This document shows positions 48,382 to 56,986 of a DNA stretch of 64,000 bases, piece after piece. The translations under genes and the position numbers were made by a program. Position 1 is the first letter of the stretch; each line of letters starts with the position of its first letter. The DNA lies in the NCBI RefSeq assembly GCF_009649845.1, contig NZ_WJIE01000003.1, positions 310,001 through 374,000 of the forward strand, read 5' to 3'. Source of the DNA: Polyangium spumosum (GTDB lineage Bacteria; Myxococcota_A; Polyangia; Polyangiales; Polyangiaceae). The notes beneath the pieces were generated by a model. That model saw only the letters and a list, made by a program, of their open reading frames with translations, searched no databases and was not told where the DNA came from.

Positions 48382-48912
48382 CTAAAACCACCACCAGCGA
48401 CCAACCTTGTGGCGCCTCGTCTCATGGCGCACGAGGCCTTCGAGCCCGAGGCATTTCACGATGTCCCAGGCGTCGCACGACGGATGAAGCGCGCCCTCGG
48501 GGATGTGGCCCGAGGACAAGGCCGCAAGGACGGCTGGTTCGCAATCGTCATCGACGCTCGACGCTCGGTCGGCCATGAGCCGTGACTCCCAGCTCCGAGG
48601 GATACCGTCACATTTCCATCCATCCTCGTCGAACTCGATGACGCGTACTTGCTCGCCTCGATCGTACGAGGTGGACCGCACCCACGAGACGGCGCTGTGC
48701 GACTGGATGGTGATGACCTCGCACCCCAGCGCGCCGCTGAAGCGCCTTCCGAGCGCACACACCGTATCGGAATCGATGCTCGCCCGGTCGAACCGCACCC
48801 ACCCGCACCCGTCCGCTGCGCAGATCTCGCCGCGCTCGCGGAGCGTCGTCGCCGCCTCGCGGGCGCGGTCGACATCATTCGTGTGAAGAAACAGCCATGC
48901 GATCTGCGACAT
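48382..48912 (-). CDS. Hypothetical protein, 176 aa
   Basis: A 176-residue protein beginning MSQIAWLFLHTNDVDRAREA, with a mixed alpha/beta layout (GWVRFDRASIDSDTVCALGR, CEVITIQSHSAVSWVRSTSYDR, VIEFDEDGWKCDGIPRSWES) and a Trp-rich end (GRWWWF). It has no signal peptide or recognised domain. The N-terminal ferredoxin-like strand and helix (AWLFLHTNDVDRAREAATTL) may be an ACT-like sensor, but this is a guess. ATG 48912 was chosen because the upstream frame runs into low-complexity Arg-rich sequence. It is the last stable gene before the transposon block. Confidence 0.65.
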   Translation of the reverse strand: MSQIAWLFLHTNDVDRAREAATTLRERGEICAADGCGWVRFDRASIDSDTVCALGRRFSGALGCEVITIQSHSAVSWVRSTSYDRGEQVRVIEFDEDGWKCDGIPRSWESRLMADRASSVDDDCEPAVLAALSSGHIPEGALHPSCDAWDIVKCLGLEGLVRHETRRHKVGRWWWF

Positions 48913-49073
48913 CGGGCGTCCTTGTACCAGCTCCCGGCCTCGTGTCGATGGCTTCGTACGAATCCCAATCGACCGCCTGCAGAACCGGAGGCTCGGGCGC
49001 GGCGCCTTGCCAGGCGGATGGAAGGCGTACGAATCACCTCCCCCATTACCCGCGAACACGTGGAGCACGACAG

Positions 49074-49140
49074 CGAGCCCTCCCCCACCGCGTCCGAGCC
49101 CTCGATAACCGCGTCCGAGCCGTCGCCAACCCCGTCCGAG
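49074..49140. repeat. First segment of a 21-bp tandem array
   Basis: Units of 21 bases beginning CGAGCCCTC or CGAGCCGTC and ending CGTC (starts at 49074, 49095, 49116, 49137) run exactly in register and stop at CGTCCGAG, where element A begins. The same units resume after the element. Confidence 0.85.
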
Positions 49141-49301
49141 GGTAGTGTCCCAGCAAGGACACTCGCGCCCGATGTTAGGACACTCGATTGGTCGGGATCG
49201 GCACCTGAACACGCGAGCCCTGACGCCGCCCGTCCTACCATCTGACGAATGAGCTTGACTCGATGAATCTTGCCATTGTGTACCAGGACGAACCAGCATG
49301 G

Positions 49302-49322
49302 ATAGGACAATTAGTGTCCTAT
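49302..49322 (+). promoter_or_regulatory. Inverted repeat operator of element A (ATAGGACA-N5-TGTCCTAT)
   Basis: Perfect eight-base arms around five bases lie 109 bases before the transposase ATG. The core TGTCCTA is the same as in the element's terminal repeats, so one protein could bind ends and promoter. Element B has the same GGACA-N5-TGTCC core upstream of its own transposase. Confidence 0.65.
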
Positions 49323-49430
49323 CCGCTCGCGAGAATCGTAGAAACCACGGCGATTCCTGATAGAATCACCTCATCACTTGATGCCCCGATGGGTCGCAGC
49401 GACGCGACGCCGGGGCGGGATGAGGGGACC

Positions 49431-50519
49431 ATGGGAGCGCCTTTAGCGCCCGAGAAGCGGCTCGCCGTTCTCGCGGCCCTTTGCGACGGCAACAGCATCC
49501 GAGCGGTCGAGCGGATGACCGGTGTGCACCGCGATACGGTCATGAGGCTTGGCCTCGCCTGGGGAGATGGCGCGCAGAACCTCCACAACCGCGTTGCCCG
49601 GGGCCTCTCGTGCTCCCTGATCCAGGTGGATGAGGTGTGGAGCTTCGTCCAGAAGAAGCAGGCCCGGGTGACCGAGGAGGACGGGCCCGACGTCGGCGAG
49701 GCGTACACGTTCACGGCCCTGGACGCGACGAGCCGCTTCGTCCTCGGTTGGTACGTGGGGAAGCGGAACGAGGAGAGCGCCCGCGCCTTCATGAACGACG
49801 TCCGCGCGCGGCTCGTCGTGATGCCCGCCATGACCTCGGACGGCTTCGCGCCGTACGTGGGCGCGATCGGCGCGGCGTTCGGTCCGGGCATTGACTACGC
49901 GATGACCGTGAAGAACTACGGCAGCAAGCGCCCGCGTCGCGACGATCACCGCTACGAGCCCCCGCGCGATCCTTTCATCACGAAGAAGACGATCTTCGGC
50001 GCGCCGAACCTGGACGCGGCGAGCACGGCGTACATCGAGCGCAACAACGGAACGATGCGGCACCATGTCGGCCGCATGCGCCGACTCTGCCAGGCGTTCA
50101 GCAAGCGCCTTCCGAGCCATCGCGCCGCCGTCGCCCTGGGGTACGTCCACTACAACTTCTGCCACGTCGTGAAGACGCTCCGCGTGACGCCTGCGATGCA
50201 GCTCGGGATCGCCGATTCCGTGTGGAGCTTGGCGGAGCTTGATGCTGTGCTGATGACCGCGGGACCGTGCGAGGGGCCGGAGAAGCAGCCGCTCGCGCCG
50301 CGCGCGCCAGAGACGACGGCGCGGGAGCTGCCTAATGGGCGAGGCTTCCTCCGCGTCGTGGGCGGTGGGAAGGGTGCGTCTCCGGCCCCTACGCCTTCCC
50401 CCGTGGCACCGGCTCCGGTCGTGGCGGCGCCCGTGGAACCCCTGTTCGATGAGAAGGGGCAAGGCAACCTGCTCGCGTGGCGCCCGAAGGGGCAGCTTTC
50501 GCTCTTCCCGGATGGATAG
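49431..50519 (+). CDS. IS1-family-like DDE transposase, single ORF
   Basis: A 362-residue transposase. An N-terminal helix-turn-helix (LAVLAALCDGNSIRAVERMT, TGVHRDTVMRLGLAW) precedes the catalytic core: IQVDEVWSFVQKKQ (first Asp), MTSDGFAPYVGAIG (second Asp) and AYIERNNGTMRHHVGR (Glu). This matches the IS1 InsB pattern (DExW, TDGW, IERxNxxxR). Here HTH and catalytic parts are one frame, with no InsA/InsB frameshift. A Pro/Ala-rich tail ends in LLAWRPKGQLSLFPDG. Similar WRPK-containing tails occur in the element B enzyme. ATG 49431 has GAGGGG upstream; longer in-frame starts at 49389 and 49263 exist. Confidence 0.9.
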   Translation: MGAPLAPEKRLAVLAALCDGNSIRAVERMTGVHRDTVMRLGLAWGDGAQNLHNRVARGLSCSLIQVDEVWSFVQKKQARVTEEDGPDVGEAYTFTALDATSRFVLGWYVGKRNEESARAFMNDVRARLVVMPAMTSDGFAPYVGAIGAAFGPGIDYAMTVKNYGSKRPRRDDHRYEPPRDPFITKKTIFGAPNLDAASTAYIERNNGTMRHHVGRMRRLCQAFSKRLPSHRAAVALGYVHYNFCHVVKTLRVTPAMQLGIADSVWSLAELDAVLMTAGPCEGPEKQPLAPRAPETTARELPNGRGFLRVVGGGKGASPAPTPSPVAPAPVVAAPVEPLFDEKGQGNLLAWRPKGQLSLFPDG

Positions 50520-50523
50520 ACAT

Positions 50524-50542
50524 GTTGCACTGGATGTGCAAC
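50524..50542. terminator. Hairpin after transposase A
   Basis: GTTGCAC and GTGCAAC form a seven-base-pair stem around TGGAT, five bases after the transposase stop. It may end the transposase transcript or lower expression of the small downstream gene, which starts 11 bases later. Confidence 0.5.
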
Positions 50543-50552
50543 AATCAAACCC

Positions 50553-50762
50553 ATGAGCGAGCGCACGGAATTATCGGATCAGGCGATGGGCAGCCCGTTG
50601 CCGCCAAAGACGCTGGCCTTGGTTGGCGTTGAAGATATGGCGGGTGTGTCGGTGCGGTTCGGCAGCGGTCACTTGGTAGAGATCGACTGCGTGCCCGGCA
50701 TGTTCGTCACGGTGCATCCGGGAAGCCGGATCGTGATCCACGGGCCGCACAAGCGACCATAG
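50553..50762 (+). CDS. Small passenger protein of element A, 69 aa
   Basis: A 69-residue protein (MSERTELSDQAMGSPLPPKT, then SVRFGSGHLVEIDCVPGMFV), beta-strand rich and possibly a small SH3- or OB-like barrel. It lies directly after the transposase. In element B an 82-residue gene occupies the equivalent place, although the sequences are not alike. The family is not recognised; it may be a helper or an accessory of transposition. No clear Shine-Dalgarno is present. Confidence 0.55.
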   Translation: MSERTELSDQAMGSPLPPKTLALVGVEDMAGVSVRFGSGHLVEIDCVPGMFVTVHPGSRIVIHGPHKRP

Positions 50763-50765
50763 CGA

Positions 50766-51038
50766 TCACCGCTTTTGCACCCGAGGGGTGTACCTAAGCC
50801 ACACAATCTCGTAATCGTGAACGATCGAGCCCTGGACCTTGACGTGATAACCAGCCTCTTCGTAGGCGTTGATTAGCGCGCGCCAAACCCGTTGCGTAAG
50901 CCCAGGCGTTTTTGCCTGCACTTGTCCGAATGTGAAGTTTGAGGCGCCGCCGCTTGCCTCCAACGCAGCATCCATCAATTGCTCGGCAGCGTCCTTAGCG
51001 CGCAGTTCCTCGGGCGTAAATGTCGGTATGTAGACCAT
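50766..51038 (-). CDS. Small passenger protein of element A, 90 aa
   Basis: A 90-residue protein starting at ATG 51038, with GGAGGAAAC just upstream (spacing about 5, a strong site). The sequence MVYIPTFTPEELRAKDAAEQ, FGQVQAKTPGLTQRVWRALI and YEEAGYHVKVQGSIVHDYEI suggests a winged-helix-like alpha/beta domain. It is convergent with the 50553 gene across four bases. The function is unknown; as an element gene it could be a DNA-binding or regulatory factor. Confidence 0.65.
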   Translation of the reverse strand: MVYIPTFTPEELRAKDAAEQLMDAALEASGGASNFTFGQVQAKTPGLTQRVWRALINAYEEAGYHVKVQGSIVHDYEIVWLRYTPRVQKR

Positions 51039-51152
51039 GTTTCCTCCGAGACCCGCACGGAGGGCGTGTACCGCAGCGCCTTGACATCCCCCGCCGCGTG
51101 CGCGAAGATGCCTGGACGTGCGGAACACGTAGGCCGATGACTTCGGCCTTCC

Positions 51153-51178
51153 AACAGGCGCCTGCCAGGGCGCCTGTT
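51153..51178. terminator. 10-bp stem terminator of the HTH operon (element A)
   Basis: AACAGGCGCC and GGCGCCTGTT pair perfectly around TGCCAG. A second hairpin, AGGCCGA with TCGGCCT, lies at 51131-51149. Both are downstream of the minus-strand HTH operon ending at 51251. Confidence 0.6.
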
Positions 51179-51250
51179 GTCTATGTGCGGAACGATTGGA
51201 AGTGGAGCACGGCTGACCGCATGGGTCAAGGCGTACCCACGTGGGGACGG

Positions 51251-51502
51251 CTACGCGTTCGGGTGGGGCGAGGCGGCGTCGAGCCGGGCTTCAAGCTCCC
51301 GGATGCCGCGGAGGATCTCCCGACGCAGGAAGGCGCGAGCGTGGACGCGTTGCGACGGCGCCGCGGTCGCATCCTCGACCAGTGCCCGGAGGCTCGCAAC
51401 GACGGGGCGGAGCGCGCCCGCGTAGACCGCCAGCGCGGCCGGGTCGGTGGTCTCGACGGGCGCCCGAAGGCGCTCACGTTCCCTCACGCGGGAGCGCTTC
51501 AT
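51251..51502 (-). CDS. Second gene of the element A HTH operon, 83 aa
   Basis: An 83-residue helical protein (MKRSRVRERERLRAPVETTD, ALRPVVASLRALVEDATAAP, REILRGIRELEARLDAASPH). Its start at ATG 51502 overlaps the stop of the HTH gene by four bases (TCAT on the plus strand), so the two are coupled. It may be a small DNA-binding or partner protein. The family is unknown. Confidence 0.6.
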   Translation of the reverse strand: MKRSRVRERERLRAPVETTDPAALAVYAGALRPVVASLRALVEDATAAPSQRVHARAFLRREILRGIRELEARLDAASPHPNA

Positions 51503-51867
51503 GCTGCCCTCCCGATGACGGGCGTGGTCACGACGAGCTTGCCGCCGAGAAGAACCTCGACCGCGACGCCAGCGGCAGCGGCGAGGCGGATCGCGAAGGT
51601 GCCGGTGGGCGGGATGCCGTTCGGGTTCGCCATGCGCCGCACGGTGTTCGCGGGCATGTTCAGCCGCGCGGCGAGCGCGTTGAAGCTGCCGAACGCGCGG
51701 CGCAGCTTCCGCACCGCGACGCGCACGGCCTTCACCTCCTCGGGGGAGAGCTTCAGCGCGTCCGAGCGGCGCTGCTTCTGCGGCTTCTCGGACGCGGCGG
51801 GGGGATCGGGCGGGCAGGGCGGATCGTTCTCTTGGCCGTACGAACCGGGCCAGTCTAGATCATGCAT
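51499..51867 (-). CDS. HTH regulator of element A (XRE-like), 122 aa
   Basis: A 122-residue protein starting at ATG 51867. After an N-terminal tail (MHDLDWPGSYGQENDPPCPP), the helical region EVKAVRVAVRKLRRAFGSFN, ALAARLNMPANTVRRMANPN and RLAAAAGVAVEVLLGGKLVV has the five-helix Cro/XRE form: A-x-L-N-x-P-x-N-T-V is the helix-turn-helix, and V-A-V-E-V-L-L-G-G closes it. It is the first gene of the minus-strand operon and has a conserved leader upstream. The likely role is a repressor of transposase or of the element. Confidence 0.75.
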   Translation of the reverse strand: MHDLDWPGSYGQENDPPCPPDPPAASEKPQKQRRSDALKLSPEEVKAVRVAVRKLRRAFGSFNALAARLNMPANTVRRMANPNGIPPTGTFAIRLAAAAGVAVEVLLGGKLVVTTPVIGRAA

Positions 51868-51890
51868 GGGCGTGGCCTCGTGCAAGCGTG

Positions 51891-51986
51891 GTTGCGTCAA
51901 GTCGCCCCGGGGGTTGGCAGACCTTCCGGGGCGGCGTCTTTTCGGGCCCGACAACCCTAGCCGCGAAATCAACCCGCCGATCGCCG
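51891..51986 (-). promoter_or_regulatory. Conserved leader of the element A HTH operon
   Basis: Read in the sense direction of the HTH gene, this stretch is homologous to 52231-52338 of element B. Shared blocks are CGGCGATCGG, GATTTCG, CGGGCC-GAAAAG, CGCCGCCCCG and CGGGGCGACTTG. A stem CGCCCCG (51903-51909) with CGGGGCG (51927-51933) encloses a 17-nt loop, the same size as in B. It may be a promoter with operator or a structured RNA leader. Confidence 0.65.
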
Positions 51987-52019
51987 TTAGGACACTTTCG
52001 CCCCCATTAGGACACTACC

Positions 52020-52195
52020 CGTCCGAGCGGATCTCTACCGCGTCCGAGCCCTCGGCAACCGCGTCCGAGCGGATCTCTACCCCGTCCGAGCCCTCGGTAC
52101 CCGCGTCCGCGCCCTCGGCGACCCCGTCCGAGCCCTCGCCAACCGCGTCGTAGCCCTCGGCGACCCCGTCCGAGCCCTCGCCAACCGCGTCGTAG
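52020..52195. repeat. Middle segment of the 21-bp tandem array
   Basis: About eight 21-base units of the CGAG-CCCTCG-GCAACC type with GCGTC or CCGTC joints, some reading CGAGCGGATCTCTACC. They lie between elements A and B in the same phase as the first segment. Confidence 0.85.
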
Positions 52196-52230
52196 GGTGC
52201 TGATCAAGATCGGCCCCGACTGATCAAGTT

Positions 52231-52338
52231 CGGCGATCGGCCGTAGCGGGCTGCGATTTCGGCGCGTAGGTTCGGCGGGCCTGAAAAGGCGCCGCCCCGA
52301 AGGGTCTGCAAACCCCCGGGGCGACTTGGCCGCAACCC
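52231..52338 (+). promoter_or_regulatory. Conserved leader of the element B HTH operon
   Basis: It is homologous to the leader of element A (reverse orientation in this window). The stem CGCCCCG (52293-52299) with CGGGGCG (52317-52323) encloses a 17-nt loop that contains GGGT-ACCC. It ends about 23 bases before the HTH start at 52362. The function is inferred from conservation between two otherwise diverged elements. Confidence 0.65.
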
Positions 52339-52361
52339 CGTTAGAGCCGGAGTCGCAACCC

Positions 52362-52694
52362 ATGCTTCGTTTAGTCCACCCCGCCCCGCGGGGCCAAGGG
52401 ACTCGTCCGCCTTCTGGTCGGAAGAGCCCCGCCCTCTACCCCTCCCAAGCCGAGCGCGCCCACATGCGCGCAGCCGAGCGCAACATCGCTCGCGCCTACG
52501 GCGGTCGCACCGTGCTCGCGTCGGTGATGGGCGTGTCGAAGGACGCCCTCAACAACATCGTCCGCGGCTCGTCCTACGCCGTGGCCGTCCTGCTCGCGCG
52601 GGCGGGCGGCATCACGGTCGAGCAAGTGCTCTCCGGGCGTCCCCACGTCGCGGGCGCGTGCTCCCTTTGCGGTCGGAAGGGAGGCGCGTCGTGA
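52362..52694 (+). CDS. HTH regulator 1 of element B, 110 aa
   Basis: A 110-residue protein. After a tail (MLRLVHPAPRGQGTRPPSGR) comes the helix-turn-helix region RAAERNIARAYGGRTVLASV, MGVSKDALNNIVRGSSYAVA and LLARAGGITVEQVLSGRP, of the XRE type. It ends RKGGAS, the same six residues that end HTH 2. TGATG joins it to the next gene. It is likely a DNA-binding regulator of the element. ATG 52362 has the leader but no strong Shine-Dalgarno (AGAGCCGGAG about 10 bases upstream). Confidence 0.75.
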   Translation: MLRLVHPAPRGQGTRPPSGRKSPALYPSQAERAHMRAAERNIARAYGGRTVLASVMGVSKDALNNIVRGSSYAVAVLLARAGGITVEQVLSGRPHVAGACSLCGRKGGAS

Positions 52695-52999
52695 TGGCCG
52701 CTCCCCTCTACCCGGGTGGTCTGGTCGAGATCCAGCGGTCGAACCTCCGCGCGCTCCTGCGCCACCTTCACCGCGAACACGGGACGTGGACGAAGGTCGC
52801 CCACCTCGTGAGCTTCCGGCGCGCCGTGGTCCTCGCGTTCTGCGACGGCACGAACCCCGGCAACATGGCGCTCGCCCGGAGCATCGCGCGCGCCGTGGGC
52901 TTGTCGCTCGACGATGCCCTCGCCGGGAAGGCGCCGCCCCGCAAGGCGCCCGCGCTCGTTCTCGTGTCCTCCCCTCGCCGGAAGGGAGGCGCGTCATGA
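52694..52999 (+). CDS. HTH regulator 2 of element B, 101 aa
   Basis: A 101-residue protein, MAAPLYPGGLVEIQRSNLRA, with an XRE-like core (LLRHLHREHGTWTKVAHLVS, FCDGTNPGNMALARSIARAV, GLSLDDALAGKAP) and a tail ending RKGGAS. The start overlaps the previous stop (TGATG). A CRO-like I/V-T-x-E...L-G ending matches the other HTH proteins here, suggesting duplication and divergence. It probably binds a related DNA site. The effect is unknown. Confidence 0.72.
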   Translation: MAAPLYPGGLVEIQRSNLRALLRHLHREHGTWTKVAHLVSFRRAVVLAFCDGTNPGNMALARSIARAVGLSLDDALAGKAPPRKAPALVLVSSPRRKGGAS

Positions 53000-53262
53000 C
53001 CGAGCCCCACGACCAGGACAAGGCCCCGGAGAGCCTCCCCGCGGTCCTCTCGACCGAGCAGGCGGAACGCGTGCGGAAAGCCCTCGCGCCCGTCGTCGCC
53101 TCGCGCGGGTTGTGGAAGATGGCCGACGCGATCGGCTACGCGCCGATGTACGTCCAGGCGTTCCTACGCGGGCAGCTTGCTTGCACGCTGCACTTCGCTA
53201 CGGGCGTCGCGCACGCGCTCGACGTCGACGTGGAAGCCCTCGTCCGAGGGGACGGGACGTGA
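52996..53262 (+). CDS. HTH regulator 3 of element B, 88 aa
   Basis: An 88-residue protein with an acidic start (MTEPHDQDKAPESLPAVLST) and an XRE-like core (RKALAPVVASRGLWKMADAI, YAPMYVQAFLRGQLACTLHF, GVAHALDVDVEALVRGDG). Its ATGA overlaps the stop of HTH 2, and its GTGA-type end overlaps the sigma-like gene. So three HTH genes and the sigma gene are one coupled operon. The role is unknown; antagonistic regulators are one option. Confidence 0.72.
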   Translation: MTEPHDQDKAPESLPAVLSTEQAERVRKALAPVVASRGLWKMADAIGYAPMYVQAFLRGQLACTLHFATGVAHALDVDVEALVRGDGT

Positions 53263-53852
53263 TCCGGTATCGCGCCTCCCCCGGCGGGGGCGCGCCGATC
53301 GTAGAGGCCGGGGCGGAGGACATCGAGGCCATGCGCCCGATGCTCCTCCGTCACGTCCGCGTGATCGGCGTGGAAGAGCGCCACGTGCCCGACGTCGTGC
53401 AGGAGACGATGATCACGACGTGGACCGCGTTGCACGAGGAGCGCGTCCGCGGATCGGAGAAGATGCCGCCCGATGCGGCGCTCCGGGGGTTCGCTCGCAT
53501 GACGGCGTGGTTCCACGCCATGAACCTCTCGCGGCGCGGCTCCGGGCGCGAGGATCCCGTGTCCTCGCTCCGGTCGGTGCCGATCCTCCTGTCGCCGGAC
53601 CCGATGCCGGGGATCGAAGCGGCGGACCTGCTCGCGCGGGTCATGGCGTCGAGCCCGAACGTCGCCCACGTCGTGGAACTCGCCGCGCGCGGGCTTCTCG
53701 GCGCGGACGCCGCGCGCGCCGCGGGACAGCCGCGGACGTCGTTCTACAAGAGCGAGAAGAAGCTCCGCGCCGCCCTCCGCAAGCTCGGCGCGGCTCCCGC
53801 CCCGAAGCAGGCTCCACGCCCCTCGTGGAAGAGCCGGAAGCGGAAGCGCTGA
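53259..53852 (+). CDS. Sigma-70-family-like protein of element B
   Basis: A 197-residue protein starting at GTG 53259. The N-terminal half shows a sigma region 2-like helix (MRPMLLRHVRVIGVEERHVP, DVVQETMITTWTALHEERVR). The C-terminal half shows region 4-like sequence (ARVMASSPNVAHVVELAARG, LGADAARAAGQPRTSFYKSE, KKLRAALRKL). The tail is very basic (PRPSWKSRKRKR). ECF-type sigma factors have this length and arrangement. It may drive transcription of the element's own genes. The match is by pattern, so ordinary HTH-only function is not excluded. Confidence 0.7.
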   Translation: MIRYRASPGGGAPIVEAGAEDIEAMRPMLLRHVRVIGVEERHVPDVVQETMITTWTALHEERVRGSEKMPPDAALRGFARMTAWFHAMNLSRRGSGREDPVSSLRSVPILLSPDPMPGIEAADLLARVMASSPNVAHVVELAARGLLGADAARAAGQPRTSFYKSEKKLRAALRKLGAAPAPKQAPRPSWKSRKRKR

Positions 53853-53893
53853 TCCCGCCTCTTGACCCCTAGCCTGTAGCCTGTATTCCATGA

Positions 53894-53931
53894 CCGTGCC
53901 GGGCGAGCGGTTCGCCGTCCGTTCGGCACGG
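53894..53931 (+). terminator. Nested hairpin after the sigma-like gene
   Basis: CCGTGCCG pairs with CGGCACGG, enclosing a second stem GGCGA/TCGCC. It lies 42 bases after the operon stop. There is no T-run. Confidence 0.5.
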
Positions 53932-54099
53932 CGTGCCCATCCTGGGCTCGTCGGTCCGCCAAAGAGAAGGGCGAGCCGCGTGGCTATCGCCCCGTCATGC
54001 TCGCCCGTCATCCCCGCGAAGGATGCTCGCGACCATGCCAGGGCACCGACCCCACGTCAAGGGATCGGCGTGTATCACGGCATCGTCCACGAGGTACGC

Positions 54100-54504
54100 A
54101 TGAGTTTCAAGGATGAATTGAGCAAAGCGCGCACCGAAGCACACGTCGTCGACTATGCCCAAAGCATCGTTGATGCCGCGCCGGAGATCTTCGCGCGGCT
54201 GGGGCTGTCACCAGATGATTGGGGCCCCATGGATGTTCGTGACGAAGTGATTCACGTCGGTTCCCGACGTGCCCCTGGCACGCGTCACATTGTGGTTGAG
54301 AGAAGCGGCGCATGGGCCAACTTCTGGCTCGATGTTGGTGACGGATACCGCATTATGGTTCAATTCCAGGCTCAAGCGATGCGCGAAGGCGTCTCAATCG
54401 ACGTTGCAGGAGTGCGGATGAAACCGGAGTTCAGCCCCGTTATATGGGACACTCTTCGTAACACGTTGAAAGATATGGCCAAGCGCGCTCAAAAGGTCAC
54501 CTGA
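54100..54504 (+). CDS. Hypothetical passenger protein of element B, 134 aa
   Basis: A 134-residue protein starting at ATG 54100 with GAGGTACGC before it. The sequence FKDELSKARTEAHVVDYAQS, ARLGLSPDDWGPMDVRDEVI, NFWLDVGDGYRIMVQFQAQA and PVIWDTLRNTLKDMAKRAQK is mixed alpha/beta. The family is not recognised. Codon use is less GC-rich than in chromosomal genes (many AAT, ATT, GAT), a sign of foreign origin. The 247 bases before it hold only the terminator. It overlaps the convergent gene by eight bases. Confidence 0.6.
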   Translation: MSFKDELSKARTEAHVVDYAQSIVDAAPEIFARLGLSPDDWGPMDVRDEVIHVGSRRAPGTRHIVVERSGAWANFWLDVGDGYRIMVQFQAQAMREGVSIDVAGVRMKPEFSPVIWDTLRNTLKDMAKRAQKVT

Positions 54505-54745
54505 TGCGGCGATACCCGACGAAGACGTCGCCGTCGATTAATGGCTCCCATTGCTCGTCACGCGGCACCCCCTCCTGATACACAATCGCTGGGGTCCTTC
54601 CGGTCCAATATGGCAATCGGCCATTCTCGCGCTCCTTCGCAATCGTAGCCAACATTGTCGTCGCGTCAGGTAGAGACGTTCGCGACCCACCAAGGAATGC
54701 GCGCACGCCGCTTTGCGGACCTGAGTAGTCGGAGTCGTCGCTCAT
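54497..54745 (-). CDS. Small gene coupled to transposase B, 82 aa
   Basis: An 82-residue protein (MSDDSDYSGPQSGVRAFLGG, MLATIAKERENGRLPYWTGR, PLIDGDVFVGYRRIR) whose ATGA start overlaps the transposase stop by four bases. It takes the position equivalent to the 69-residue gene in element A. It has an acidic N-terminus and a beta-rich C-terminus. The function is unknown. Codon use resembles the 54100 gene. Confidence 0.6.
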   Translation of the reverse strand: MSDDSDYSGPQSGVRAFLGGSRTSLPDATTMLATIAKERENGRLPYWTGRTPAIVYQEGVPRDEQWEPLIDGDVFVGYRRIR

Positions 54746-55893
54746 TCGTCCCCCCAGAGCGGCAACCGCACACCGTCTCGCGACTTCGGACGCCACTCGA
54801 ACAACTGCAACTGCGTCCCCCGTGGCGGTAGCGCCTCGCGCGGGACCTCCCCAGTCCCAACCCTCGCCGGGGACGGGGTGGGCGGCGTAGGCGCCCGCGG
54901 AGCGTCGCTCGGCTTCCCCTTCCCCCCGGGCAGGGCGCGGAGCCATCCTTTGCCGTTGGGGAGCTCGCGGGCGGCACCCTGCTTCACCCCTTCGATGGGC
55001 GCGGGCGGCACGAGCTTCTTAGGCTCCGGGGGCGCGCACGGCTCCGCGGCAAGGGCGCGCTCGACAAGCTCCTGCACGCTCCACACGTGATCCGTGATGC
55101 CCGCCTCCATGGCCGGCGTCACGCGCAAGCTCTCGTGCACGCGGCAGAAGTTGTACCACATGACGTGCAGCGACACGGCGGCGCGGTGGTTCTCGATCTT
55201 CTTTGAGAACGCGTTCCCGCGGCGCATGAAACGCCGAATGTGCATCCGGACCGTGAGGTTCGCGCGCTCGACGTGCGAGGTAGAGGCCCGGTCGAGGTTC
55301 GGCGCGCCGTGCACCACCTTCTTCGTGATGAATTTGGGCGCGTCCTCGGGCGCGTATTTGTCGAACCGATCCGAGCCGTGCTCGCGCCGTCCAGGCTTCC
55401 TCGTGTAGTTCTTCTGGATGACCGCGTGGTCCACCGCGCCTGCGAAGCTCTGCCCCACGGCGGCCTGATACGGCTGCCATCCGTCCGTCGAAATCTGCGG
55501 GATCGTCACGAGCCGGGCGCGAAGATCGGCCACGAATGCCTGCGTGTCCGCTTCGTTCCGCTTGCCCACGCGGTAGGACACGAGGAGCTTCTTCGTCCTG
55601 GCGAGTGCGAGGTAGGTGTAGCTTTCCCCGACCTCGGGCGAGTCCTCGGGCGTCACGTTCTTCTGGCGCTTCTGGACGTAGGCGTGCAGCTCGTCGCACT
55701 CGATCTCGTGGATGTCGAGGTCCCTCACGAGCAGGTTGTGCAGGTTGTCGCACCCCGCGCCCATGCGAAGCAGGGTCGAGAGGACCGTCGGAAGCGACAC
55801 GTCCGTGAGCCGCGACGTCGAGCGCACGCTCGCGCCCTCTACGAGGTGCTTCACCACGTCGGTGCGCTTCTCGATGGGCAGGACGTTCGCCAC
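54742..55893 (-). CDS. IS1-family-like DDE transposase of element B
   Basis: A 383-residue homologue of the element A transposase. The HTH part (RTDVVKHLVEGASVRSTSRL, TDVSLPTVLSTLLRMGAGCD) leads to IECDELHAYVQKRQK (first Asp), ISTDGWQPYQAAVGQSF (second Asp) and SHVERANLTVRMHIRR (Glu). The tail ends LQLFEWRPKSRDGVRLPLWG. It and A share the catalytic blocks and ELPNGKGWLR-type tail pieces but are otherwise diverged, so they are separate elements and not copies. The GTG start at 55893 is chosen; a longer in-frame start exists at 56157. Confidence 0.88.
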   Translation of the reverse strand: MANVLPIEKRTDVVKHLVEGASVRSTSRLTDVSLPTVLSTLLRMGAGCDNLHNLLVRDLDIHEIECDELHAYVQKRQKNVTPEDSPEVGESYTYLALARTKKLLVSYRVGKRNEADTQAFVADLRARLVTIPQISTDGWQPYQAAVGQSFAGAVDHAVIQKNYTRKPGRREHGSDRFDKYAPEDAPKFITKKVVHGAPNLDRASTSHVERANLTVRMHIRRFMRRGNAFSKKIENHRAAVSLHVMWYNFCRVHESLRVTPAMEAGITDHVWSVQELVERALAAEPCAPPEPKKLVPPAPIEGVKQGAARELPNGKGWLRALPGGKGKPSDAPRAPTPPTPSPARVGTGEVPREALPPRGTQLQLFEWRPKSRDGVRLPLWGDE

Positions 55894-56035
55894 GACGCGA
55901 GACCCCAGCAAGGGCCGCCACGGGCGCCGCGTCGCGCCCCATGCGCGTTGTCGGCTCGACCGTTTCAGCGGCTCACTCGATGGGATGAATCTATCACGAT
56001 TCGTCGGGAATTCGTGGTTATTCGGCAATGTGCTA

Positions 56036-56050
56036 GGACATGAATTGTCC
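56036..56050 (-). promoter_or_regulatory. Inverted repeat of element B (GGACA-TGAAT-TGTCC)
   Basis: Five-base arms with a five-base spacer lie about 143 bases upstream of transposase B, mirroring the operator of element A. The 355-base stretch 55894-56248 otherwise holds only the terminal repeat and no gene. Confidence 0.55.
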
Positions 56051-56248
56051 GAGGTAGGGCCGTTTGCCCGAGGAGATCGGCACGGCGATCCGCGGGTCAA
56101 GCGTGCCAACACCAGGGCGGACGATGCCGGTCCGCGCCACGCGTTCAGGAAGGACATGTACTCACCTCGCCAGACATCGGATGGGGCTCATCGGGAAGGG
56201 CCGCGCGTTCGTCGCGCCGAACCGGCTGATCAAGTTTGATCAGTACCC

Positions 56249-56353
56249 GTCGTAGCCCTCGGCGACCCCGTCCGAGCCCTCGCCAACCCCGTCCGAGCCC
56301 TCCCCCACCGCGCCCTCGTCCTCGCCAACCGCGTCCGAGCCTTCTCGGTGACC
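56249..56353. repeat. Last segment of the 21-bp tandem array
   Basis: The array resumes after element B with CGTCGTAGCCCTCGG (the repeated 8 bases plus array) and continues CGAGCCCTCG-CCAACC to about 56353. The segments total roughly 350 bases and about 15 units. The next 110 bases to the 56465 gene hold no recognisable feature beyond its ribosome site. Confidence 0.8.
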
Positions 56354-56464
56354 GTCCACAGAGCAAGATTCCGCCGATGACAGCCTCCGGTTCCTGTTTA
56401 TCTTGCGGTCCTCACCCCAATTCGTCCCGCTCCCTTCCTTGAGGGTGCGGGCATGGAGGTTCTC

Positions 56465-56986
56465 ATGAAGAATGACATTTTCGCTCCCTACACGGGCCCC
56501 AGCACCATCGACGTCTCCGGTGTTCGCGTCAGGCTCGTGGACCTCATCAATGGCACGCTCGCGGGCGCGCAGCGCGAGAAGGATGGCTTTCCGGAGGTGT
56601 ACGACGAGCTTTCGAAGGCCATCCCGCAGTACGGCGAGGCCCTCGGCATTCACCTCAGCCTGTGGCACAAGGTCGTCGAGAAGACCGCCACGCTCGACGA
56701 GATACGAGCGCTCAAGAAGGATGTCCTCAAGCTCGCGGAGGTCCTCACGGAGAGCGAGATCTACTACGAGGACGCGCGCGAGGCCGACATCAGCCGGATC
56801 GGCGGATTCGTCGACGCCACCGCCCAGCACAGCGACCCGTCCGTGCGGGCAGCATTCCAGAAGACCCTGGAGTACCGCTCCCGATATGGGAAGAAGGCCG
56901 CAAACCAGCGCCGCAAGAACAAACAAGCGCGCGCCGAGACGAACGCCGAGCCCGCCACGGAAGCCCAGTCGCCGAACCCCGCCTGA
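56465..56986 (+). CDS. Hypothetical helical protein, 173 aa
   Basis: A 173-residue protein. ATG 56465 has GGAGG (56455-56459) five bases upstream; ATG 56453 is in frame too. The sequence MKNDIFAPYTGPSTIDVSGV, GFPEVYDELSKAIPQYGEAL and TATLDEIRALKKDVLKLAEV is helical and contains coiled-coil-like stretches, with a basic tail (KKAANQRRKNKQARAETNAE). The family is unknown. It is the first gene after the transposon block and has ordinary GC-rich codon use. Confidence 0.68.
   Translation: MKNDIFAPYTGPSTIDVSGVRVRLVDLINGTLAGAQREKDGFPEVYDELSKAIPQYGEALGIHLSLWHKVVEKTATLDEIRALKKDVLKLAEVLTESEIYYEDAREADISRIGGFVDATAQHSDPSVRAAFQKTLEYRSRYGKKAANQRRKNKQARAETNAEPATEAQSPNPA

Follow-up and report, generated by a model that had tools for sequence, protein, structure and literature searches.

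The window analysed here, a stretch of 64,000 nt from Polyangium spumosum (contig NZ_WJIE01000003.1, positions 310,001 to 374,000), contains two IS1-like elements, A and B, and in each an operon of small HTH-like proteins runs inward from one end. The noncoding leaders of the two operons are alike, and the question raised by this locus is what the shared leader encodes. The first-pass annotation had suggested an operator or a structured RNA. The elements and their genes are as follows.

49141-52019: element A, IS1-like, with transposase P0001 and an HTH operon
49263-50519, plus strand: transposase P0001 of element A
49133-49140 and 52020-52027: 8-bp flanks of element A, CGTCCGAG
51499-51867, minus strand: P0003, small HTH-like protein, gene 1 of operon A, with weak HTH matches below the curated cut-offs
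51251-51502, minus strand: P0004, gene 2 of operon A, for which the family search gave no family at E ≤ 1
52196-56247: element B, IS1-like, with transposase P0002 and an HTH/sigma operon
56157-54742, minus strand: transposase P0002 of element B
52188-52195 and 56248-56255: 8-bp flanks of element B, CGTCGTAG
52362-52694, plus strand: P0005, HTH-like, gene 1 of operon B, with weak matches below cut-offs
52694-52999, plus strand: P0006, HTH-like solely through matches shared with P0003 and P0005 at the first genes of other loci
52996-53262, plus strand: P0007, HTH-like, with relatives (G000c40 and G003a) that match HTH models
53259-53852, plus strand: P0008, ECF-like sigma factor, last gene of operon B, with a weak Sigma70_r2 match below cut-off

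Against Pfam DDE_Tnp_IS1, P0002 scored 33.6, above the cut-off of 24.1, and P0001 scored 20.6, below it; with NCBIfam transpos_IS1 the two transposases gave 61.8 and 57.7, both under the cut-off of 100. In both elements the transposase gene faces the HTH operon. In element A, inspection by eye also showed two small ORFs, one per strand, in the interval from the transposase to the HTH operon (50554-51128). Both elements interrupt a 21-bp tandem repeat (CGTCCGAGCCCTCGCCAACCG-like) found at 49074-49143, 52003-52198 and 56231-56363, and because the 8-bp flanks are themselves repeats, they may or may not be target duplications.

The leaders, with the start and ribosome-binding signals recognised in them, are placed as follows.

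51866-51985, minus-strand sense: leader A, presumed 5'UTR of the element A HTH operon, running from 51985 down to the ATG at 51867
complement of 51954-51959, minus strand: TAGGGT, -10-like box of leader A
52230-52361, plus-strand sense: leader B, presumed 5'UTR of the element B HTH operon, with the ATG at 52362
52267-52272, plus strand: TAGGTT, -10-like box of leader B
52349-52352, plus strand: GGAG, Shine-Dalgarno sequence of leader B

The homology of the leaders proposed in the first-pass annotation held on every point. All of the sense-strand blocks that it named are present in both leaders in the order claimed, and so is the CGCCCCG/CGGGGCG stem with its 17-nt loop. A repeat search found the two leaders as inverted repeat I3, with 67-nt arms at 51898-51964 and 52262-52328 that are 85% complementary, a similarity that no other pair reached among the longest 25 of 82 repeat pairs. 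The likeness is far beyond chance: BLAST of leader B against its own genome gave 15 places at E ≤ 0.001, 13 of which are copies other than the two in the window (E from 1.2e-46 to 6.7e-4).

Leader B has matches in six of six Polyangium genomes; in a search of named genomes the sole locus returned was that of Polyangium fumosum DSM 14668. The covariance-model search that the first-pass annotation had called for was made with two models, R1 from 24 Polyangium copies and R2 from 51 aligned rows. At E ≤ 0.1, R1 matched 22 of the family's 98 genomes; across the phylum, at E ≤ 0.01, it matched 12 of 377. R2 matched 25 of the 183 genomes of the order, in 12 of 83 genera, a few of these matches being probably due to chance, and again 12 of 377 genomes in the phylum sample. 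Matches judged by eye to be due to chance (L052-L054, L056 and L057 in the family search, L066-L071 in the phylum search, and those in G253, G160, G429 and G465) are excluded from the copy counts and are still inside the R1 and R2 genome tallies. Among the hits inspected, none outside the order was a convincing copy. The covariance model recognises 19 paralogues in the window's own genome, and R2 has 15 matches in G088, a genome of 14,782,125 bp. No known RNA family was recognised: in an Rfam search of 48900-56500 there were six matches of 16.9-23.5 bits, all below their gathering scores, and BLAST searches with leader A (phage records) and leader B (plasmid records) were without a match. Among the papers listed in the literature searches, none describes the RNA family in its title or the opening of its abstract, which is not proof that there is no such paper, and none was found for the term 'carph-isopro'. 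At one locus (L096, in G097d) two partial leader copies follow one another directly, the base where they join being undetermined, which may be an assembly effect.

The leaders are not confined to elements like A and B; many mobile elements and some other loci have operons that begin with one. A match to an IS1-like transposase at E ≤ 1e-3 was present in 29 of 71 fetched stretches, some of which overlap or are short. The other 42 had no such match at this threshold, and the structure and, mostly, the promoter-like positions described below are kept in them. Elsewhere the first or a later gene encodes an ECF sigma factor, a RadC-like protein, a tyrosine integrase, a P22-type antirepressor or RecA. 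At six Polyangium loci (L004, L005, L020, L023, L024 and L028) a divergent HTH-like gene lies alongside and no IS end could be seen by eye. Given these varied contexts, the module belongs to mobile elements and similar loci generally, rather than to one transposon. The sigma factor gene is last in the HTH operon of element B, and in several Sorangium copies a sigma factor gene is first in the operon.

Free drift of the stem in further homologues, which the first-pass annotation had named as refuting its reading, was looked for, and the outcome favours structure. In an alignment of 50 distinct copies, both sides had changed in 15 of 22 pairs; shuffles averaged 8.0 and none of 500 reached as many, and when the partners were slid by 1-3 columns at most 8 pairs were changed on both sides. 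In a later set of 27 distinct copies, which lay outside model building and were found with the model, the figure was 19 of 24 pairs (mean 9.2); none of 500 shuffles matched it, and sliding left no more than 8. Fitting the alignments to the structure tilts such counts in its favour, and the slid and shuffled controls do not wholly remove the bias; moreover, the copies are related, and neither the covariation counts nor the counts of mispairs, promoter positions and codons below are counts of independent events. A misalignment of helix 2 made RNAalifold give a poor structure on the first MAFFT alignment. Of the two suggestions made for the leader, then, a structured RNA is upheld by the covariation, and an operator is not the chief explanation.

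Which strand carries the structure can be read from the mispairs. G·U pairs are tolerated in RNA helices and A·C pairs are not, and an A·C in one strand is a G·U in the other. Over 24 helix pairs in 50 distinct rows, the non-Watson-Crick cells in the sense strand were 218 A·C, 9 G·T and 41 other. Split by source, the 38 Polyangium rows gave 189, 7 and 29, and the 12 rows from other genera 29, 2 and 12. The 24 pairs include two extra in-helix pairs and leave out two flanking positions; without the two added pairs the counts were A·C 139, G·T 9 and other 39. Antisense alignment A5, in which groups are offset by one column, was left out of the counts. In 28 later rows the sense-strand counts were 63, 2 and 7. 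The large excess of A·C over G·T in the sense helices argues that selection has acted mainly on a structure of the antisense strand.

Folding energies agree: over the 5'UTR the antisense strand was the lower in 74 of 74 sequences, with a mean of -47.5 kcal/mol for antisense vs -32.6 for sense, and over 125 nt in 73 of 74. These 74 sequences comprise 69 distinct copies and five that overlap others, and they include one doubtful copy without an assigned start (G004d). For the window copies, the antisense strand of A has a z score of -4.4 and that of B one of -5.2, and in neither case did any of 200 shuffles fold as well.

The initial model had been an ordinary sense leader, in which the 5'UTR of the mRNA folds and hides the Shine-Dalgarno sequence, as a riboswitch, a protein-binding leader or a thermometer. 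Sense P1 is indeed a good hairpin, and P2 holds the Shine-Dalgarno sequence and has a few compensatory changes. There is also a counter-trend on the flanks of helix 1, where two positions (columns 13/56 and 14/55 of alignment A4) lean toward sense pairing. In the 50 distinct rows the first of these has G·T in 33, A-T in 9 and G-C in 7, with one gap, and always pairs in sense; the second has C·T in 42 and T·G in 8, and is mispaired in many rows. In the 28 later rows the two positions have G·T in 23 and T·G in 20, respectively, the T·G being found in many Sorangium-type copies. With the flanking positions included, the totals become A·C 218 vs G·T 50, and 63 vs 45 in the later rows. The first flanking position may thus reflect some pairing in the mRNA as well. 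Within the helices, however, the conserved, G·U-tolerant pairing in the mRNA strand expected of a sense riboswitch or leader was not found, and it was the mispair count that ruled against the initial model. Further, the sense z scores of the window copies are only -1.4 (A) and -1.3 (B), no Rfam family reached threshold, and a sense leader leaves the fixed rare codons 4 and 12, described below, unexplained. We therefore regard a sense leader as unlikely. The structured RNA of the first-pass annotation is, on the helix mispairs and the folding energies, probably to be placed on the antisense strand rather than in the sense leader.

The predicted antisense RNAs are as follows.

51866-51943, plus strand: predicted antisense RNA of element A, fold -45.3 kcal/mol
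51869-51898, 51901-51935 and on to 51943, plus strand: its predicted SL1, SL2 and U-containing tail
52282-52364, minus strand: predicted antisense RNA of element B, fold -51.2 kcal/mol
52360-52328, 52325-52291 and down to 52282, minus strand: its predicted SL1, SL2 and UUUU tail

In the 45 copies listed the antisense fold is much alike: two tandem stem-loops, SL1 typically of 12-13 bp and SL2 typically of 14-17 bp, are separated by a gap of 2-3 bases and followed by a short U-containing tail. The predicted RNA is about 80 nt long, starts about 7 bases past the -10 box, near the complement of the start codon, and spans most of the presumed 5'UTR and the Shine-Dalgarno sequence, with the start codon within it or at its edge. 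By virtue of this position it is fully complementary to the target's translation initiation region. As would be expected of a countertranscript, the structure lies on the strand opposite the target gene, with the two flanking positions leaning the other way. SL2 of B stops about 12 bases downstream of the sense start expected from the TAGGTT box. A generic scan of 51700-52500 found no intrinsic terminator, the U run being of 4 U only.

In known antisense systems the loops often set specificity. The SL1 loops were distinct in 17 of 19 own-genome copies and in 15 of 15 in G088; the SL2 tips were distinct in 15 of 19 and 14 of 15, the automatic loop finder having picked the wrong hairpin for SL2 in three own-genome copies. 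That paralogues differ in their loops, the part that was compared, fits one RNA per operon.

Promoter-like positions were found inside the first gene of the operon.

51832-51861, plus strand: predicted promoter of antisense RNA A, in codons 3-12 of P0003
51832-51837 and 51856-51861, plus strand: its -35 box TTGGCC and -10 box TAGATC, spacer 18
52368-52397, minus strand: predicted promoter of antisense RNA B, in codons 3-12 of P0005
complements of 52392-52397 and 52368-52373, minus strand: its -35 box TTGGCC and weak -10 box TAAACG, spacer 18

The family pattern on the antisense strand within the first gene is TTGGCC or TTGCCC, 18 bases, then TAnnnT. At fixed positions in 83 distinct copies, the -35 box had T in 76, T in 78 and G in 71, and the -10 box had T in 57, A in 74 and, at position 6, T in 44. 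In 81 of 84 distinct segments the promoter score was higher than synonymous-codon shuffles gave on average. The codons are correspondingly unusual. NTA stands at codon 4 in 62 of 95 copies but makes up 25 of 7015 background codons; at codon 12, 81 of the 95 have CAA and none has CAG, the background having 26 CAA and 99 CAG. The background codons lie further on in the same genes of 66 copies, L005 having been dropped for a degenerate start and G004d and G029 because no start was found by the rule. The 95 copies are 67 with an assigned start (of 69 distinct) plus 28 later ones, and the first 67 starts were chosen by a rule favouring CAA, CAG or AAA at codon 12; 52 of the 67 had a single ATG or GTG in the segment searched for starts, and in the other 15 the chosen start was the first ATG or GTG. 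Among the 28 later copies, each with one candidate start, codon 4 was NTA in 18 and codon 12 was CAA or AAA in 25. In two divergent copies (G034 and G003d) the CCAAG motif is kept in another reading frame, which argues that DNA rather than protein is conserved. A -35/-10 pair inside codons 3-12 is our explanation for the fixed rare codons 4 and 12.

The pattern has exceptions. Eleven of 95 copies, all of them A-type, have CTG at codon 4 and with it no TA at the antisense -10; eight of 95 lack CAA or AAA at codon 12 (AAG in 2, other codons in six); and L005, G464, G011 and G476 do not fit the promoter pattern. The generic scan of 51700-52500 reported no sigma-70 promoter on the window copies. 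By eye, two other candidate parts of the antisense RNA were set aside: a long-range helix CUUGGCC/GGCCAAG, which several copies pair poorly and for which the -35 box seems the better explanation, and a coding-region hairpin, P3, which may be better explained by the promoter spacer. On the sense side, a consensus promoter (TTGVNN, 16-18, TANNNT) was present upstream in only 18 of 95 copies. The IS copies, inspected by eye, have a common TAGGNT-like box and no clear -35, and it is a matter of speculation that this box might be read by an element-encoded sigma factor.

The aligned copies establish, at the level of predicted structure, a real, covarying and strand-biased RNA fold antisense to the 5'UTR of mobile-element regulator operons, and, on the same comparative footing, that promoter-like positions shape the codons of the first gene. 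From these we infer that the RNA is transcribed and represses translation. The conserved block is thus, in our judgement, probably the gene of a cis-encoded antisense RNA that would restrain the regulators of mobile elements in Polyangiales, and a member of a new family. Its promoter would lie inside codons 3-12 of the operon's first gene, which encodes an HTH protein here and a sigma factor or other regulator elsewhere, and would fire outward, against the gene. The resulting RNA of about 80 nt would start near the complement of the start codon and fold into two adjacent stem-loops, and by pairing with the mRNA it would block ribosome binding and keep the element's regulators low. Copies in the same genome would keep different loops so that each RNA is directed chiefly at the mRNA of its own operon. 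It would be easy to take a conserved leader for a sense structure; here the opposite strand is indicated by the in-helix covariation, and the promoter would be carried by codons of the gene itself. If the RNA is made, this would be a large antisense RNA family for mobile-element regulators in bacteria with very large genomes, and it would offer a simple model for how elements stay quiet and how cross-talk is avoided among many related copies. For Sorangium cellulosum So0157-2, transcriptome reads exist, according to the portion of PMC3696898 consulted.

There are precedents for such an arrangement. CopA/CopT, RNAI and other copy-control countertranscripts have stable stem-loops whose loops differ between related replicons and set specificity. 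They control plasmid replication, whereas the hosts here are transposable and other mobile elements. In the parts of PMC5006887 drawn on here, IS10/Tn10 RNA-OUT is described as having its promoter inside the element, opposite its target, and as being complementary to the translation initiation region; it is 69 nt long, its first 35 nt are complementary to the start region of the mRNA, and pairing prevents ribosome binding. On the present reading the predicted RNA would act much as RNA-OUT does, or RNAII of pMV158, but RNA-OUT targets the transposase and here the target is an HTH/sigma regulator operon, and, unlike RNA-OUT, the predicted RNA has two stem-loops and overlaps most of the presumed 5'UTR. 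RNAII of pMV158, an antisense RNA that acts alongside the repressor protein CopG, is, in the section of PMC4485353 that deals with it, a 48-nt countertranscript with one hairpin, encoded between copG and repB, which is complementary to sequence upstream of the start signals of its target and inhibits translation; the RNA predicted here is about 80 nt with two stem-loops and has its promoter within the target gene. Myxococcus Pxr sRNA is also a small structured myxobacterial RNA, but, in the excerpts describing it, has three stem-loops and controls development; nothing here ties it to the present family.

The spacer of antisense promoter B contains a further feature.

52379-52393: dyad CCCCGC-CCC-GCGGGG, family-wide and weak in A-type copies

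In codons 6-11 of 61 distinct segments the mean longest stem was 4.64 vs 3.68 (sd 0.12) for synonymous shuffles, the highest of 300 shuffles reaching 3.97, and third positions change on both sides of the dyad with the peptide kept (CCG/GGC, CCT/GGA, CCA/GGT). On these comparisons the dyad may serve as an operator, form a hairpin in the mRNA or have some other role. A wider, joint reading, which we put forward tentatively and think on balance doubtful, takes the antisense RNA and the promoter within 12 codons as a shared cassette, the dyad as an operator and the whole as a bistable switch. The cassette would be shared horizontally and would control the on/off decision of many unrelated mobile elements of Polyangiales; the dyad would be the operator for an element-encoded protein, the regulator and the antisense RNA would repress each other, and loop divergence would insulate up to 19 switches per cell.

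Three explanations other than a sense leader compete with a dedicated antisense RNA gene. The structure could be part of a longer antisense transcript, for example of read-through from the transposase gene, in which it would act as a 3' end or a transcription block. The facing orientation of transposase gene and HTH operon in both window elements and the short U run after SL2 would suit this, but with an IS1-like transposase in only 29 of the 71 stretches, and with the structure and mostly the promoter-like positions kept in the others, we consider it improbable. Still less probable is a DNA operator, the inverted repeats being sites for HTH proteins on double-stranded DNA: a dyad in DNA would not favour A·C over G·T in one strand, and SL1 and SL2 are long, vary between copies and also precede sigma and antirepressor genes, even though HTH genes adjoin the leaders and the codon 6-11 dyad, in exceeding its synonymous shuffles, could be such a site. 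That the block serves transposition, as a subterminal sequence by which the ends are recognised or as a guide-like RNA, can be given scarcely any credence: it does lie within about 35-165 bp of one element end in A and B, but the repeat search found it at one end only of each, six Polyangium copies have no IS end by eye, and 42 of the 71 stretches have no IS1-like transposase.

Two loci outside the window have unusual neighbours. In another genus (G029) the leader lies upstream of a phage-type P22_AR_N antirepressor gene (L118 and L055). At L123, in G003a, a leader-headed HTH gene is followed, about 600 bases downstream of the first start, by a gene for a 1464-aa protein in which TIR, WD40-like, GTPase and nucleosidase-like parts were recognised by eye.
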